Part shown: positions 475 through 12,202 of the stretch, piece after piece
How positions within the stretch are numbered: the stretch's first letter is position 1
Layout of the letters: every line of letters begins with the position of its first letter
Source of the DNA: Herpetosiphonaceae bacterium
GTDB lineage: Bacteria > Chloroflexota > Chloroflexia > Chloroflexales > Herpetosiphonaceae
Length of the DNA: 33,122 bases
Reading direction: 5' to 3'
Assembly (NCBI GenBank): GCA_013538855.1
Contig: JABXJS010000111.1
Coordinates: 1 to 33,122 of the forward strand
The notes under the pieces: generated by a model
What the model was told of the DNA's origin: nothing
Seen by the model: the letters and a program-made list of their open reading frames with translations, nothing else
Databases searched by the model: none
Program-made: the position numbers and the translations under genes

Positions 475-2484
475 ATGCAGACAGCGCTCACATTTGGCCG
501 CTCGATCCTGGGCTATCCCGAGGCGGCGCTGCGCCGCGAATGGTTGGTCAGCAATGGGATCGGCGGGTACGCGATGGGATCGGTGCAGGCCAACACGCCG
601 ACGCGCAAGTACCACGGCTACCTGGTGGCCGCGCTGGAGCCACCGCTCGGGCGCGTGGCGCTGGTCGGCGGCCTCAGCTGCTTTGCGCGCTACGCTGATG
701 CGGAGTACGAGCTGAGCGGCTTCGAGTGGGCCGACGGAACATTCAGCGACGGCTATCGCCACATTGATAGCTGGAGCCTGCACGATGGCATTCCCACCGC
801 CACCTTCGCCCTGGCCGAGGCGCAGGTTGTGCAGCGCGTGTGGATGGAGTATGGGAGCAACACAACCTATGTACAGTTTGAGCATGTGCGCGGCAGCGCG
901 CCGATCGAGCTGCGCATGCGCCCGCTGCTTACCGAGCGCGACCACCACGAGACCAGCGTTGACGCCGACTGGCAGCCAACAATCGGCGTGGTGCCCAACG
1001 GTGCGACGGTCGCCCTACAGCAGCACGCGGCCACGCTGCGCCTGCTCTCGGACTATGCGGTGTGGACCACCAACGGCAGCGAGTGGATCGACGCCGTGCA
1101 CTATCGCGTCGAGACCTACCGCGGCTACCCCGACACAGCGCGGCTGCTGGTTGCTGGCGAGTTTTATGTCACCTTGCGCCCAGGCGGCAGCGTCACGCTG
1201 GTCTTCTCGACCGAGGCCGCGCCTGATCTAGACGGCCATGCGGCGCTAGAGCGGGCCAGCGCACGGGCCAGCGAGCTGCTCGCCCAGGCGGCGCTGCCAG
1301 CCGACGCGCCACAGCTAGCGCGCCAACTTGTGCTTGCCGCCGACCAGTTTATCGTGCGCCGTGACGTGCGCATGCCAGACGGCAGCAGCAGCGCCGGCGT
1401 CAGCGTGCTGGCCGGCTATCCCTGGTTCAGCGATTGGGGCCGTGACACCATGATCGCGCTGCCAGGGCTGCTGCTCAGCACCGGGCGCGTCGAGCTTGCC
1501 GCACGCACGCTGCGCACCTGGAGCCACTTTGTGAGCCAGGGCATGCTGCCCAACCGCTTCCCAGACATCGGCGACGAGCCAGAGTACAACACCGTTGACG
1601 CGACGCTGTGGTTTGTGCAGGCCCTGCGCGCCACCTACCAGGCCAGCGGCGACCGCAGCCTGATCGCCGACCTCTACCCGGTGCTGCAGAGCATCATCGC
1701 GTGGCATCGTCAGGGCACGCGCTACAGCATCAAGGTGGCCGACGACGGGCTGCTGGCGGCAGGCGAGCCGGATGTGCAGCTGACCTGGATGGATGTGAAG
1801 TACAAAGGCTGGGTGGTGACGCCGCGCCAAGGCAAGGCCATCGAGATCAACGCGCTGTGGTACAGCGCCCTGCGCACGCTGGCCGAGTTCGCCGAGCTGC
1901 TGGAGCGGCCGCAGGATGCCGCCGCGTTCAGCGCCGAGGCCGAGCAGGTCCAGCAGGCCAGCGAGCGCTTCTGGAGCGCTGAGCACGGCTATCTCTACGA
2001 CGTGCTCGACGGCCCCGACGGAGCCGACGCGACCCTGCGGCCCAACCAGCTGCTGGCGCTGGCGCTGGCGCACCCGCTGATCAGCGGCGCGCGCGCGCAG
2101 GCGGTGGTTGACGTATGCGCGCGCCAGCTGCTCATCGCGACCGGGCTGCGCTCGCTGGCACCGAGCGACCCGGCCTACATCGGGCGCTACGGCGGCGACC
2201 TCAAGGCCCGCGACAGCGCCTACCACCAGGGCACAGCCTGGGCCTGGCTGAGCGGGCCGTTCATCAGCGCCTACGCGCGCGTGTACGGCGCAGCGGCGGC
2301 GCAGCAGTGGCTCGCGCCGTTCAGCGATCACCTGGCCGACGGCGGCGTTGGCTCGGTCAGCGAAATCTTCGATGGCGACGCGCCCTGGCCGCCGCGTGGC
2401 TGCCCCTGGCAGGCGTGGAGCGTGGCCGAGTGGCTGCGTGTCTGGCGCGAGCTACACAGCCTTACGCACGCACCAGCGCGCTAA
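475..2484 (+). CDS. Glycogen debranching enzyme (amylo-alpha-1,6-glucosidase family)
   Basis: This 669-aa cytoplasmic protein matches bacterial and archaeal GDE-type debranching enzymes, which hydrolyse alpha-1,6 branches of glycogen. Residues 22-50 hold the N-terminal signature (WLVSNGIGGYAMGS, then TRKYHGYL). The C-terminal (alpha/alpha)6 catalytic domain shows PWFSDWGRDTMIALPG (316-330), LPNRFPD (358-364), EYNTVDATLWF (370-380), TWMD (437-440) and YHQGTAWAWLSGPFI (583-597). Family knowledge places the catalytic acids among these aspartates and glutamates. The length is normal for the family. The ATG at 475 has AGAGGAA about 10 nt upstream. No other glycogen gene lies nearby, so it seems to stand alone. 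No promoter was recognised, and the repeat region lies directly upstream. Confidence 0.93.
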   Translation: MQTALTFGRSILGYPEAALRREWLVSNGIGGYAMGSVQANTPTRKYHGYLVAALEPPLGRVALVGGLSCFARYADAEYELSGFEWADGTFSDGYRHIDSWSLHDGIPTATFALAEAQVVQRVWMEYGSNTTYVQFEHVRGSAPIELRMRPLLTERDHHETSVDADWQPTIGVVPNGATVALQQHAATLRLLSDYAVWTTNGSEWIDAVHYRVETYRGYPDTARLLVAGEFYVTLRPGGSVTLVFSTEAAPDLDGHAALERASARASELLAQAALPADAPQLARQLVLAADQFIVRRDVRMPDGSSSAGVSVLAGYPWFSDWGRDTMIALPGLLLSTGRVELAARTLRTWSHFVSQGMLPNRFPDIGDEPEYNTVDATLWFVQALRATYQASGDRSLIADLYPVLQSIIAWHRQGTRYSIKVADDGLLAAGEPDVQLTWMDVKYKGWVVTPRQGKAIEINALWYSALRTLAEFAELLERPQDAAAFSAEAEQVQQASERFWSAEHGYLYDVLDGPDGADATLRPNQLLALALAHPLISGARAQAVVDVCARQLLIATGLRSLAPSDPAYIGRYGGDLKARDSAYHQGTAWAWLSGPFISAYARVYGAAAAQQWLAPFSDHLADGGVGSVSEIFDGDAPWPPRGCPWQAWSVAEWLRVWRELHSLTHAPAR

Positions 2485-2522: not shown

Positions 2523-2531
2523 TGCTATAAT
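2523..2531 (+). promoter_or_regulatory. Extended -10 promoter of the barrel/kinase/roadblock operon
   Basis: TGC followed by TATAAT (2526-2531) is a perfect extended -10 element. Transcription would start near 2538, ahead of the ATG at 2569. No good -35 is visible at 16-18 nt, as is usual for extended -10 promoters. It also rules out an in-frame start at 2509. Confidence 0.7.
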
Positions 2532-2568: not shown

Positions 2569-3726
2569 ATGACGCACTATTACCCCGATGGAACAGCGCC
2601 TGTGGTCACCCACACTGTCGCCCGCATCGAGCGCCAACTGCCTGTGCCCGGCGATGTAAAAGTCCGCGTCGGGAGCCGCGTGGAGCCAGATGACATCGTG
2701 CTGCGCGCCGACTACCCCTTAGGCCCGCAGATCATCAACGTGGCGCGCGAGCTAAGCATTCTCCCACGCCAAGTTTACTCCAAGATGAAAAAAGAAGAGG
2801 GCAACAAAATCGAAAAAGGTGAGCTGATCGCGCGCGCCAGCGTGTTTGGCGGTCGCTCGGTGCAATCGCCGGTGGCCGGCGTGATCACCACCATCGACCG
2901 GGCAACCGGCTACGTCACCATCACGCCCAACCCCGTGCAGCTCGAGCTACGCGCCCAAGTGCGCGGCATCGTGATGGAAGTGCCCGACAAGCGCACAGTC
3001 ATCATCGAAACACCGGCCTCGTATGTGCAGGGTATTTTCGGGCTAGGCGGCGAGCGCTTCGGCGTGCTGCGGCTGCGCGTCTCCGACCGCAGCGAGTCGC
3101 TCGATGCCAAAGACATCAGCGCCAGCGAGGCCTACGCCATCATCATCGGCGGAGCGAGCATCACCGCAGCGGCGCTACGCCGCGCCCTCGAAGAGCAGGT
3201 GCGCGGCGTGATCGTTGGCGGCATCGAGGAGCATGAGCTGCGCGATTTCCTTGGCGATACAGAGTTTCACGCCTGGCGCACAGGCTACGACTCCTGGCGC
3301 TTGCCTGCGCCGCCCTACAACCGCGACCCCGGGCTAACGCTGATGATCACCGAGGGCTTTGGCGTGCGCCCCATGAGCGCGCCACTCTTTGACACACTGG
3401 CCACCTATAACCAGCAAGAGGCGCTGATCGAAGGCGCAACGCAGCTGCGCGCCGGGCTGCGCCGACCGCGCATCGTAATACCGCTCTCGCGGGTCAGCAA
3501 CGTCGAGCAGGTCGCACCATCCATGGCCGAGCTGGCGCTCAACAGCATGGCCCGCATCCTAGCCGGGCCGCACGCCGGGAAGATTGGGCAAGTGGTGGCT
3601 CTACCAACACGGGAGCAGCGCCTGCCATCGGGGGTTTTGAGCAGTGTTGCTGAGGTGCAGCTGGTTGGTGCAGACGCAACCCGCGTGCTGCTGCCGCCAG
3701 CCGCGCTCGAACCTCTGCTGACGTAG
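2569..3726 (+). CDS. Conserved protein with barrel-sandwich and KOW-like domains, function unknown
   Basis: The product is 385 aa, with no signal peptide or membrane segment. Residues about 25-120 look like a biotinyl/lipoyl-type barrel-sandwich domain: PGDVKVRVGSRVEPDDIVLRA, then SPVAGVI at 100-106. The typical MKM biotinylation motif is absent, so it need not carry a cofactor. A middle alpha/beta part (about 185-300) contains IIIGGASITA and GVIVGGIE. AGPHAGKIGQVVAL (332-345) resembles a KOW motif, normally involved in RNA or ribosome contacts. The start at 2569 is preferred because AGGAG precedes it and a promoter lies just upstream. It is the first gene of an operon, and its TAG stop overlaps the AGGAG of the next gene. 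No function can be assigned. Its company suggests a link to signalling. Confidence 0.85.
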   Translation: MTHYYPDGTAPVVTHTVARIERQLPVPGDVKVRVGSRVEPDDIVLRADYPLGPQIINVARELSILPRQVYSKMKKEEGNKIEKGELIARASVFGGRSVQSPVAGVITTIDRATGYVTITPNPVQLELRAQVRGIVMEVPDKRTVIIETPASYVQGIFGLGGERFGVLRLRVSDRSESLDAKDISASEAYAIIIGGASITAAALRRALEEQVRGVIVGGIEEHELRDFLGDTEFHAWRTGYDSWRLPAPPYNRDPGLTLMITEGFGVRPMSAPLFDTLATYNQQEALIEGATQLRAGLRRPRIVIPLSRVSNVEQVAPSMAELALNSMARILAGPHAGKIGQVVALPTREQRLPSGVLSSVAEVQLVGADATRVLLPPAALEPLLT

Positions 3727-3741
3727 GAGCAACAGACGGAT

Positions 3742-5388
3742 ATGACCGAACAGCAACCAGCATCTCGACTCGATGTCCGTCAGTCGCACGCTGCCATTCT
3801 GGTTGTCGATGATGATCAGGCAATGTGCCACTACTGCACATCGGCGCTGCGCCATCTTGGCTATCACGTAACGGCAACGACCTCCAGCCTAGCGGCGCTG
3901 GACTATCTGCGCCAGCAGCCGTTTGATCTTGTGCTGACCGATATCAAGATGCCACAGCTCAGCGGGCTGGACCTCACCCGCCACGCCCGCGAGATCGACC
4001 CAATCCTGGCGATCGTGATTATGTCGGGCCAGACAAGCCTAGAGATGCTGCGCGAGGCGGTGTCAAACGGCATCACCAGCTACCTCAGCAAGCCCTTCGA
4101 GGTCGAGGAGTTGCGCCTGACCGTCACCCAGGTGCTGCACCAGCGCACCATGATGCGCGATAAGCTGCGCCTAGAGACGGTCGTGCACCAGCTGCGGCTC
4201 AGCAGCGCGTTCAACTATACACTCTCCCTGCCGGAGATGTGCGCCGAGATTTTGCGCGTCGTGCAGGAGGAGATCAGCGGGCGCTGGGCGTACTTTCTGC
4301 TCAACGTCGATGACGCCGCGCCGCGGCTGCTGTTTGGCCACCCCGACCAGCCACCGCTGGACACGGCTGGCTGGCAGCTGCTGCAGCAGACGGCGCTCAA
4401 GCAGCTGCCATCGCGCACCCGCATTCAGCTGGGGGCCGAGCTGTGCGACGGCGTCTGCCTGCCGCTAAGCGTTGGCGGGCAGAATATCGGCAGTGTGTTG
4501 TTCAACCACACCCAGCCGCTCACGCCAGCGCGCGCCGAAAGCCTGACGCTGCTGATGAAGCACGCCGCCGCCGCGCTCAACAACGCGCGCCTCTTCACGC
4601 AGGTGCAAGAGGCCAACAGTCGCCTGCAGGAGCTTGATCGACTTAAGAGCGAGTTCATCGCCATCACCTCGCACGAGCTGCGCACACCGCTCGCAATTGT
4701 GTTAGGATACGCTATGCTGCTCCACGATCAGGCCGATCCGCCAGCGCGTGAGTATCTGCGCCGTATGCTTGAAAGCGGCCATCGTCTCAATGCGATCATC
4801 GACGACATGACAAACCTGCGCCAGGTCGAGCTACGCCAGACCCACCTCACCATCGAGGAGGTCGATCTGGCCGATCTGATGCAGGAGTGCGTGACGAATG
4901 TCCAGAGCCTAGCCGACGGCAAACGCCAGACGCTCAATCTCAAGTATGACGCCAGCGCGCTGTGTCGCGTCCACCTGGACCGCGATAAAATCGCGCTTGT
5001 GCTTACAAGTTTGCTCTCAAATGCGATTAAATTCACACCAATCGGCGGCGATGTCACACTGCAAGCCTGGTGTGAGCATGTGGAAACAGTGCCGTATGCC
5101 CACGGCGACCAAGCAATTGCGCTCAATCCAGGCGCTTGGGCCTTTATCAGCGTCCAAGATACTGGCATTGGCATCCCGCCTGGGCAGCAGCGGCGTATCT
5201 TTGAACGGTTCTATCAGGTCGCAGATTCCTTGACCCGCGAGAATGGCGGCACGGGACTGGGCCTCGCTCTTGTACAGGGTTTGGTGACTGTGCATAATGG
5301 ACATGTCTGGGTGACCAGCCAGGAAGGCATGGGCAGTACATTCACGGTGGCGCTCCCACAGAATGTGCCGCAGTCCCTGATGTCGTAG
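3742..5388 (+). CDS. Hybrid receiver-GAF-histidine kinase
   Basis: This 548-aa soluble kinase has an N-terminal receiver (about 18-133; acidic pocket DDD at 23-25, phosphoacceptor D67 in LTDIKMP, K117). A GAF-like sensor follows (about 155-285), then a short coiled coil. The HisKA domain carries phosphorylatable H311 in SHELRTP. The HATPase domain shows N427 (LLSNAIKF), DTGIGIP (473-479) and GGTGLGLAL (502-510). Having the receiver before the kinase means it probably takes a phosphoryl group from another kinase, or is controlled by its own receiver. No transmembrane helix is seen, so it senses a cytoplasmic signal or partner. It begins 15 bp after the barrel/KOW gene and is followed after 8 bp by the receiver-roadblock gene, so the three are co-transcribed. 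Confidence 0.92.
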   Translation: MTEQQPASRLDVRQSHAAILVVDDDQAMCHYCTSALRHLGYHVTATTSSLAALDYLRQQPFDLVLTDIKMPQLSGLDLTRHAREIDPILAIVIMSGQTSLEMLREAVSNGITSYLSKPFEVEELRLTVTQVLHQRTMMRDKLRLETVVHQLRLSSAFNYTLSLPEMCAEILRVVQEEISGRWAYFLLNVDDAAPRLLFGHPDQPPLDTAGWQLLQQTALKQLPSRTRIQLGAELCDGVCLPLSVGGQNIGSVLFNHTQPLTPARAESLTLLMKHAAAALNNARLFTQVQEANSRLQELDRLKSEFIAITSHELRTPLAIVLGYAMLLHDQADPPAREYLRRMLESGHRLNAIIDDMTNLRQVELRQTHLTIEEVDLADLMQECVTNVQSLADGKRQTLNLKYDASALCRVHLDRDKIALVLTSLLSNAIKFTPIGGDVTLQAWCEHVETVPYAHGDQAIALNPGAWAFISVQDTGIGIPPGQQRRIFERFYQVADSLTRENGGTGLGLALVQGLVTVHNGHVWVTSQEGMGSTFTVALPQNVPQSLMS

Positions 5389-5396
5389 GAGTCATT

Positions 5397-6536
5397 ATGG
5401 CGTATAGGGTGTTTATTGTTGCAGGCGATAATGCGGTGCTACACAGCCTGCCTGTCTTAATGGAAACAAACAACGAAATTGAAATCACCAGCTTGGAGTC
5501 ATCAAACGAGGCCCTCTGGGAGCTACAGCAGGGCGCACCCGATGTGCTGGTCGCCGATCTGGACCTGCCAGGCTTTAGCGGGCTGGAGCTGGCCGATCTC
5601 GTGCCGGACTTCGCCCCCGAGACGCGGGTGATCTTGTGCGCCCGCAATCCCAGCGGCGATGTGGAAAACCAGGCGGCACAGCGCGGCCTGTTTCGGCTGC
5701 TAAAGGGCGAGCAGCCCGCCGATGTCATCGCGTCGGTGGTTTTTGCGGCAGCACAGCAAGCGCCCGCTCCGGCCGCACGTGCGCCAGAGCCAGAGCCAGA
5801 GCCTGCGCCCGCGCCGAGCCAGCCCGCGCCAACGCCGCCGCGCTCAGAGCCAAAGCCCGCACCGCAGCGCGCCGCCCCGCCGCCGACCAATAGCTCGAAC
5901 AGCTCGGCAGCGAACAACCGCACGCCCTACGCCGTTTCAAAGGCTCCGCCACCAGCACCGATCCGCAAAGCGCCGCCCAAAGTGAGCGCTCGCCCGGACC
6001 TGCCTGGCCGCTCCGCCGCCCAGCCTGGTCGCCCGGCAGCCCCAGCGGCGCGCGCGAGCGCCCCGCCGCCAGCGCCAGCACCTGTCGAGGAGCCACAGGT
6101 GGTCGAAGATCAGGCGAAAAAGAAACGGACCAGCGGCTCGCTGGTGCTCACAGCCGAGACGATCGCACCCATCCGCGCCAAGCTCAAGGACTTGGGTATG
6201 CAGCTCGGCGCACAGGCCACCGTGCTCACCGACCGCTGGGGCGTGCCGCTGGTCGAGGAGGGCCGCACAAGCCTGCCACTGCCACCGTTTCTGCCGCTGC
6301 TGGCGACCAGCTTCTCGACCATGATCGACTACACCAGCCAGCTGCACACCGACGAGGGCAGCGGCCTCTATATGCACGAGGGCAACCGCTACGATATCTA
6401 CATCTTCGACGTCGGCAGCCAGTTCTTGCTGGTCATGATCTTCGATAAGGAGATCGCCGCATCGAAGCTCGGCTCGGTCTGGCTCTACGCCAAGCGCGCC
6501 GTCCGCGAGCTGGCCGACGAGCTTGAGGGCACCTAG
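5397..6536 (+). CDS. Receiver / Pro-Ala linker / roadblock-LC7 protein
   Basis: The 379-aa product has three parts. Residues 3-118 form a receiver fold with phosphoacceptor D54 (ADLDLPGFSG) and K103. The N-terminal acidic pocket is reduced to a single aspartate (D11 in VAGDNA, where DD or DDD is usual), so phosphorylation may be weak or absent. Residues about 120-245 are a proline/alanine-rich, probably disordered linker. Residues 248-379 match the roadblock/LC7 family (ATVLTDRWGVPLVEEG, YDIYIFDVGSQFLLVMIFD, LYAKRAVRELADEL), which usually dimerises and regulates Ras-like GTPases, as MglB does for MglA. No GTPase gene is in the window. It is last in the operon, 8 bp after the kinase, with its AGGAG overlapping the kinase stop. 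The upstream kinase is its likely phosphodonor (inference). Confidence 0.88.
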   Translation: MAYRVFIVAGDNAVLHSLPVLMETNNEIEITSLESSNEALWELQQGAPDVLVADLDLPGFSGLELADLVPDFAPETRVILCARNPSGDVENQAAQRGLFRLLKGEQPADVIASVVFAAAQQAPAPAARAPEPEPEPAPAPSQPAPTPPRSEPKPAPQRAAPPPTNSSNSSAANNRTPYAVSKAPPPAPIRKAPPKVSARPDLPGRSAAQPGRPAAPAARASAPPPAPAPVEEPQVVEDQAKKKRTSGSLVLTAETIAPIRAKLKDLGMQLGAQATVLTDRWGVPLVEEGRTSLPLPPFLPLLATSFSTMIDYTSQLHTDEGSGLYMHEGNRYDIYIFDVGSQFLLVMIFDKEIAASKLGSVWLYAKRAVRELADELEGT

Positions 6537-6545
6537 AAAACGTGC

Positions 6546-6577
6546 GGCCGCCAGATCAGCCAATTGATCTGGCGGCC
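6546..6577. terminator. Bidirectional hairpin terminator
   Basis: A perfect 13-bp stem pairs GGCCGCCAGATCA (6546-6558) with 6565-6577 around a 6-nt loop. It lies between convergent genes ending at 6536 and 6586. On the minus strand the stem is followed closely by TTTT (complement of 6537-6540). On the plus strand there is no U-tract. Confidence 0.8.
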
Positions 6578-6585
6578 ACCAGCGG

Positions 6586-9388: not shown

Positions 9389-12202
<2,814 letters not shown>

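Follow-up and report, generated by a model that had tools for sequence, protein, structure and literature searches.

The question raised by this locus is how three adjacent genes, encoding a barrel/KOW protein (P1), a receiver-GAF kinase (P2) and a receiver-roadblock protein (P3), act together, and whether they form the phosphorelay onto a Ras-like GTPase that a first-pass annotation had suggested. The genes lie in a contig of a Herpetosiphonaceae bacterium, and the whole stretch of 33,122 nucleotides that was analysed is referred to here as the window. The domain calls made for all three proteins were upheld (Table 1), and the proposal of one operon is borne out by the common direction of the genes, by the lone extended -10 box ahead of them, which matches perfectly, and by the TAGGAG at each of the two junctions. 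The box is the predicted promoter element of the operon; matches to TGNTATAAT number 3 in the whole window, against 0.08 expected by chance. An in-frame ATG of P1 at 2509 sits 5' of this box, and the homologues begin at MTHYYPDG of 2569. The hairpin behind P3 is intrinsic-terminator-like for the minus strand, its T-run serving the convergent minus-strand gene. Just 5' of the operon lies a glycogen debranching enzyme gene (GDE_N/GDE_C; 475-2484, plus strand), and a protein of similar length is also found upstream in Herpetosiphon (L073). Farther along the window, an IMP dehydrogenase gene (9389-12178, minus strand) carries an in-frame intein-like insert of ~415 codons just before the catalytic Cys (GPGSI/C...HN/CTTR; Pfam Intein_splicing 2e-10).

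Table 1. Features of the operon and its borders, in window coordinates.
Feature	Position	Strand	Basis or size
Extended -10 box TGCTATAAT	2523-2531	+	exact match, 5' of operon
Shine-Dalgarno-like TAGGAGA of P1	2553-2559	+	sequence
P1 gene	2569-3726	+	385 aa
P1 N-terminal barrel-sandwich hybrid	~2602-2958	+	BCCP/NqrA/RnfC-type barrel, VIA-align Z ~8
P1 swivelling beta/beta/alpha domain	~2947-3489	+	RraA and rifampin-phosphotransferase swivel domain, VIA-align Z 8.4-9.0
P1 C-terminal KOW/SH3 domain	~3526-3723	+	VIA-align KOW Z 8-9.5
TAGGAG, P1 stop fused with P2 ribosome site	3724-3729	+	sequence
P2 gene	3742-5388	+	548 aa
P2 receiver (residues 19-127)	3796-4122	+	Pfam 1.6e-26
P2 GAF	4222-4578	+	below Pfam cut-off in window; clear in orthologue
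P2 HisKA	4645-4824	+	Pfam 1.1e-15
P2 HATPase_c	4978-5361	+	Pfam 2.9e-26
TAGGAG, P2 stop fused with P3 ribosome site	5386-5391	+	sequence
P3 gene	5397-6536	+	379 aa
P3 degenerate (pseudo-)receiver (residues 5-102)	5409-5702	+	Pfam 1.4e-10
P3 Pro/Ala-rich linker	~5760-6130	+	sequence
P3 MglB-type roadblock domain, no C-terminal extension	6138-6524	+	NCBIfam MglB and family profile
Strong hairpin between P3 and convergent gene	6544-6579	unassigned	-33.3 kcal/mol, z -4.6

The arrangement is widely conserved and not confined to one genome. In each of the 53 Chloroflexales-and-sister genomes in which P1 and P3 share a contig, whether or not P2 is present, the two genes are neighbours on the same strand, no more than 6 kb apart. 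The kinase is missing at 21 of these 53 loci (L081 being one of them), absence being scored by a P1-P3 gap too short for it, as a flank-based kinase test overlooks some kinases where flanks are short. Because P1 and P3 stay neighbours where the gap has no room for P2, the P1-P3 pair is the core, and P2 is an optional member lost in many lineages.

The claim that P3 ends in a roadblock domain was confirmed by significant similarity of its C-terminal residues in profile searches. Residues 248-376 match NCBIfam MglB (NF052242) at 5.8e-10, with 39.5 bits against the NCBI equivalog cut-off of 200, and the profile of the P3 roadblock family matches solved MglB chains at 2.3e-16 to 1.6e-9, best over 131 of 133 positions. 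Pfam Robl_LC7 gives no match to the same residues; a check by Pfam only would wrongly refute the domain, since only the NCBIfam and profile searches detect it. In MglB, Asn37 and Arg98 are the GAP residues (PMC11016934), and a C-terminal GEF helix follows the roadblock (PMC6785124, PMC11016934). The P3 equivalent of Asn37 is never Asn in 18 sequences (A, W, M, E or G), and the C-terminal helix is absent, no aligned homologue of P3 extending beyond the final roadblock helix; a classical GAP/GEF action of P3 therefore appears doubtful. The host's own canonical MglB likewise lacks Asn37 and Arg98 in the alignment. A serious rival to a role of P3 on the GTPase switch itself, rated unlikely, is that the roadblock is MglC-like, pairing with MglB or with itself as a structural platform that makes no contact with the GTPase. 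Such a role would fit the residue and helix differences just described, a helix-2 face unlike that of MglB, and the second, canonical MglB that adjoins MglA in the same genome; the search of solved structures with the P3 profile nevertheless returns MglB entries alone at E <= 0.01, and the equivalent of Arg98 is Arg in 13 of the 18 sequences (Gln in the window).

The operon holds no GTPase gene. The expectation that an MglA-like GTPase would be encoded elsewhere in the genome proved right: mglA lies on a different contig (C41), beside the separate mglB. Contig C279 (L128 / L004) encodes a further pair of small GTPase and roadblock protein, distinct from MglA/MglB. Across the Chloroflexales, MglA is present in 62 of 63 P3 genomes. 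P1, P3, the MutL-type ATPase associated with P1, MglA and MglB are all absent in 11 of 11 genomes of genus g6, and DUF6754 and pilus/secretion-type ATPase matches are absent in the 7 of 7 tested. Genus g19 is devoid of MglA, MglB and P3 and retains P1, the MutL-type ATPase, DUF6754 and one pilus/secretion-type ATPase. These loss patterns are suggestive of P3 going with MglA and P1 with the ATPase, each co-loss being a single event in a single genus and the Fisher values ignoring phylogeny. The pilus/secretion-type matches (TIGR01420) all score below the curated cut-off and mean some type II/IV-family ATPase; a PilT identity was rejected for them on that ground. The g6 genomes (G010, G029 and others), of ~3 Mb, belong to the same family as the Roseiflexus-like f3 genomes. 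P3 is not obligatory, since one genome (G012) keeps MglA and MglB and has lost P2 and P3 beside P1.

The receiver of P3 is degenerate, whereas that of P2 is canonical. In P2, residues D23, D24, D67, K117 and H311 are invariant among 20 homologues and the catalytic boxes are intact; its GAF domain scores 22.9 bits against a Pfam cut-off of 28.6 in the window and 1.2e-19 in an orthologue. In P3, the Mg2+-binding acidic pair is absent in 23 of 23 aligned homologues, the Lys is found in one of the 23, the window sequence itself, and residue 54 is D (11), E (8), N (2), S (1) or P (1). A set of 40 loci gave the same picture, and the features of a phosphorylatable response regulator (acidic pair, phospho-Asp, Thr/Ser, Lys) are not found as a set in P3. 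Phosphotransfer from P2 to D54, as first proposed, is unlikely because the P3 receiver is degenerate and P2 is missing at so many otherwise intact loci. A phosphorelay in which D54, once phosphorylated by P2, would alter the action of P3 on MglA thus carries a low probability, even with D54 present in the window and the kinase catalytically intact. No D54 occurs in any read locus without room for P2, a weak trend in its favour that is not significant at the genus level, and the 12 of 23 homologues with E, N, S or P at this position include genera that retain P2.

P1 has a different history. It is a phylum-wide family in Chloroflexota, the closest named relatives of the window protein being those of Herpetosiphon and a Herpetosiphonaceae MAG at 71-74% identity. 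Among 400 Chloroflexota genomes, P1 is found in 226, a MutL-type ASKHA ATPase (PF13941) in 225 and both in 212 (phi 0.86, counts that ignore phylogeny). Of the 87 genomes in which positions were compared, 80 have the ATPase gene immediately 5' of P1 and in the same orientation; the 7 exceptions are all Chloroflexales, and outside that order P1 directly follows the ATPase in 80 of 80. In the Chloroflexales, the ATPase keeps its place in an operon with DUF6754, two 6-TM proteins (F2 and F4) and a bitopic Zn-ribbon protein (F1); the ATPase of the host genome matches PF13941 at 6.6e-62. A sister family (L098) carries F1-F2-ATPase-P1 followed by P2-P3-atpB in one block, which looks like the ancestral state. 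The F1 proteins of these operons (L115-L126) are highly variable in length and combine a Zn ribbon with a disordered stretch that holds many PxWLR-type repeats and with a generic Rossmann-like domain flanked by two TM helices; a structure search with this extracytoplasmic domain gave generic Rossmann-like matches only (E 5.5e-3, Z <= 9.2), and no function is claimed for it. DUF6754 was not found mentioned among open-licence papers. The earlier view of the locus as a kinase-to-GTPase set stands in part: the MglB-type P3 and the MglA of the genome agree with it, and the main partner of P1 is instead the MutL-type ATPase/membrane module.

Outside the Herpetosiphonaceae, atpB-atpE-atpF usually follow the cluster directly (17 loci; Pfam), and P1 remains next to atpB even at two loci lacking P2 and P3 (L149, L110). 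Together with the resemblance of the P1 barrel to NqrA/RnfC, this could mean a role of the cluster in membrane energetics, in which the adjoining F1Fo ATP synthase is regulated by P1 (with P3). Such a role is improbable, however, for no atp linkage exists in the window's own family, or in the phylum at large, where P1 comes after the MutL-type ATPase.

The structure of P1 predicted by AF2 (pLDDT 88) resolves into three domains with domain-level matches only; no PDB entry matched it over its whole length in Foldseek, the best hit being NusG (E 2.6e-4, TM 0.14), and a PHROGs search gave nothing for P1 and receiver-level matches only for P3. The KOW motif falls slightly below the Pfam cut-off (21 bits against 22.3) and is supported by the predicted fold. 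The swivel domain has no conserved His among homologues; a phosphotransferase role was dropped for that reason, and P1 looks like a multidomain adaptor devoid of a catalytic signature, not an enzyme. That the operon is an ordinary regulatory cluster, in which the NusG/Spt5-like KOW domain lets P1 act on RNA polymerase or ribosomes, is very improbable in spite of the fold match: the KOW/SH3 barrel is a generic fold (subunits of photosystems and of complex I match P1 about equally), Pfam finds no NGN domain in P1, and the genes that accompany P1 encode membrane proteins and an ASKHA ATPase.

Based on these findings, a model is tentatively proposed, with a confidence somewhat short of even, in which P3, built of pseudo-receiver, linker and roadblock, serves the MglA switch as a scaffold and is connected to the ATPase/membrane module by P1. 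The roadblock of P3 would dimerise and dock on MglA (or on MglB), and P3 would thereby read or tune the MglA/MglB polarity switch, while its pseudo-receiver, carried on the disordered Pro-rich linker, would bind a partner protein without phosphorylation. P1 would be the adaptor, with an old partner in the MutL-type ASKHA ATPase, whose operon encodes membrane proteins (the 6-TM proteins, DUF6754 and the Zn-ribbon/bitopic protein). By joining P1 with P3, the Chloroflexales would have tied this module to polarity or surface motility under the control of MglA, with the soluble GAF kinase P2 and its own canonical receiver as an optional input. We infer the binding of P3 to MglA/MglB, that of P1 to the ATPase and to P3, and the polarity or motility output from the invariant P1-P3 adjacency, the match of the P3 C-terminus to MglB structures, the contrast between the two receivers, the co-occurrence and adjacency of P1 and the ATPase with the single block of the sister family, and the presence of MglA with P3 together with the co-losses in g6 and g19. 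Gliding of filamentous Chloroflexota (PMC13104615, PMC3368417) is consistent with such an output. Against the scaffold model stand the missing Asn37 and GEF helix, the genome with MglA/MglB that lost P2 and P3, the single-event nature of the co-losses, and the many Chloroflexota that hold P1 and the ATPase without P3, so that the module itself need not serve motility. A bolder version, of low probability, is that P1, the ATPase, DUF6754 and the linked membrane proteins constitute an undescribed phylum-wide envelope machine, put under MglA control via P3 in gliding Chloroflexales; if true, the machine could be part of the filaments' surface-motility apparatus.

Gliding and polarity of filamentous Chloroflexota are poorly known, and the conserved gene pair, by which an MglB-type protein is linked with an ATPase/membrane module found across the phylum, offers concrete deletion targets. 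It also provides a first point of entry to P1, DUF6754 and the operon of the MutL-type ATPase.

No system with this gene set was found described in the open-licence papers searched, as the first-pass annotation had supposed, nor was P1 or a receiver-roadblock fusion found there. For P1 the likenesses are of fold: of the NGN and KOW domains that follow one another in NusG/Spt5, it shows a KOW fold and gives no NGN match in Pfam; its other domains resemble RnfC/NqrA barrel-sandwich and RraA/phosphohistidine swivel domains but have no conserved catalytic His, and its genomic partners are not Rnf/Nqr pumps. Its associated ATPase matches the MutL/GlmL family (PF13941, ASKHA ATPase), yet is set among DUF6754, 6-TM membrane proteins and P1. 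The roadblock domain of P3 matches MglB over its whole length, yet the P3 gene is not adjacent to mglA. With the Myxococcus xanthus MglA/MglB/RomR(X)/FrzS system the operon has in common an MglB-type roadblock and MglA in the genome; RomR (PMC10329633) has the receiver and disordered linker layout of P3, and FrzS, a described pseudo-receiver in the MglA pathway (PMC11580455), has its pseudo-receiver. In P3, by contrast, pseudo-receiver and roadblock are in one protein, beside P1 and often a kinase; the roadblock replaces the C-terminal Glu-rich helix of RomR, so that the RomR feature set is incomplete; Asn37 and the GEF helix of MglB are missing; and no link to a MutL-type ATPase module features in the Myxococcus system as described. 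Actinobacterial conservons (CvnA-D; AGPS) likewise combine a histidine kinase with an MglB-type roadblock in an operon (PMC4316618, PMC13343842), but the Chloroflexota operon and its conserved neighbours in other genomes have neither the GTPase (CvnD) nor a CvnC homologue, its kinase is soluble, dispensable and equipped with an N-terminal receiver, and its roadblock is fused to a pseudo-receiver. Because defining features fail in each case, P3 and its operon are not classed as MglB, response regulator, RomR or conservon, though a like function may be possible. In conclusion, the described systems that come closest are the polarity proteins of Myxococcus and the actinobacterial conservons, and the fused pseudo-receiver/roadblock design enlarges the small group of Ras-type switches in bacteria.
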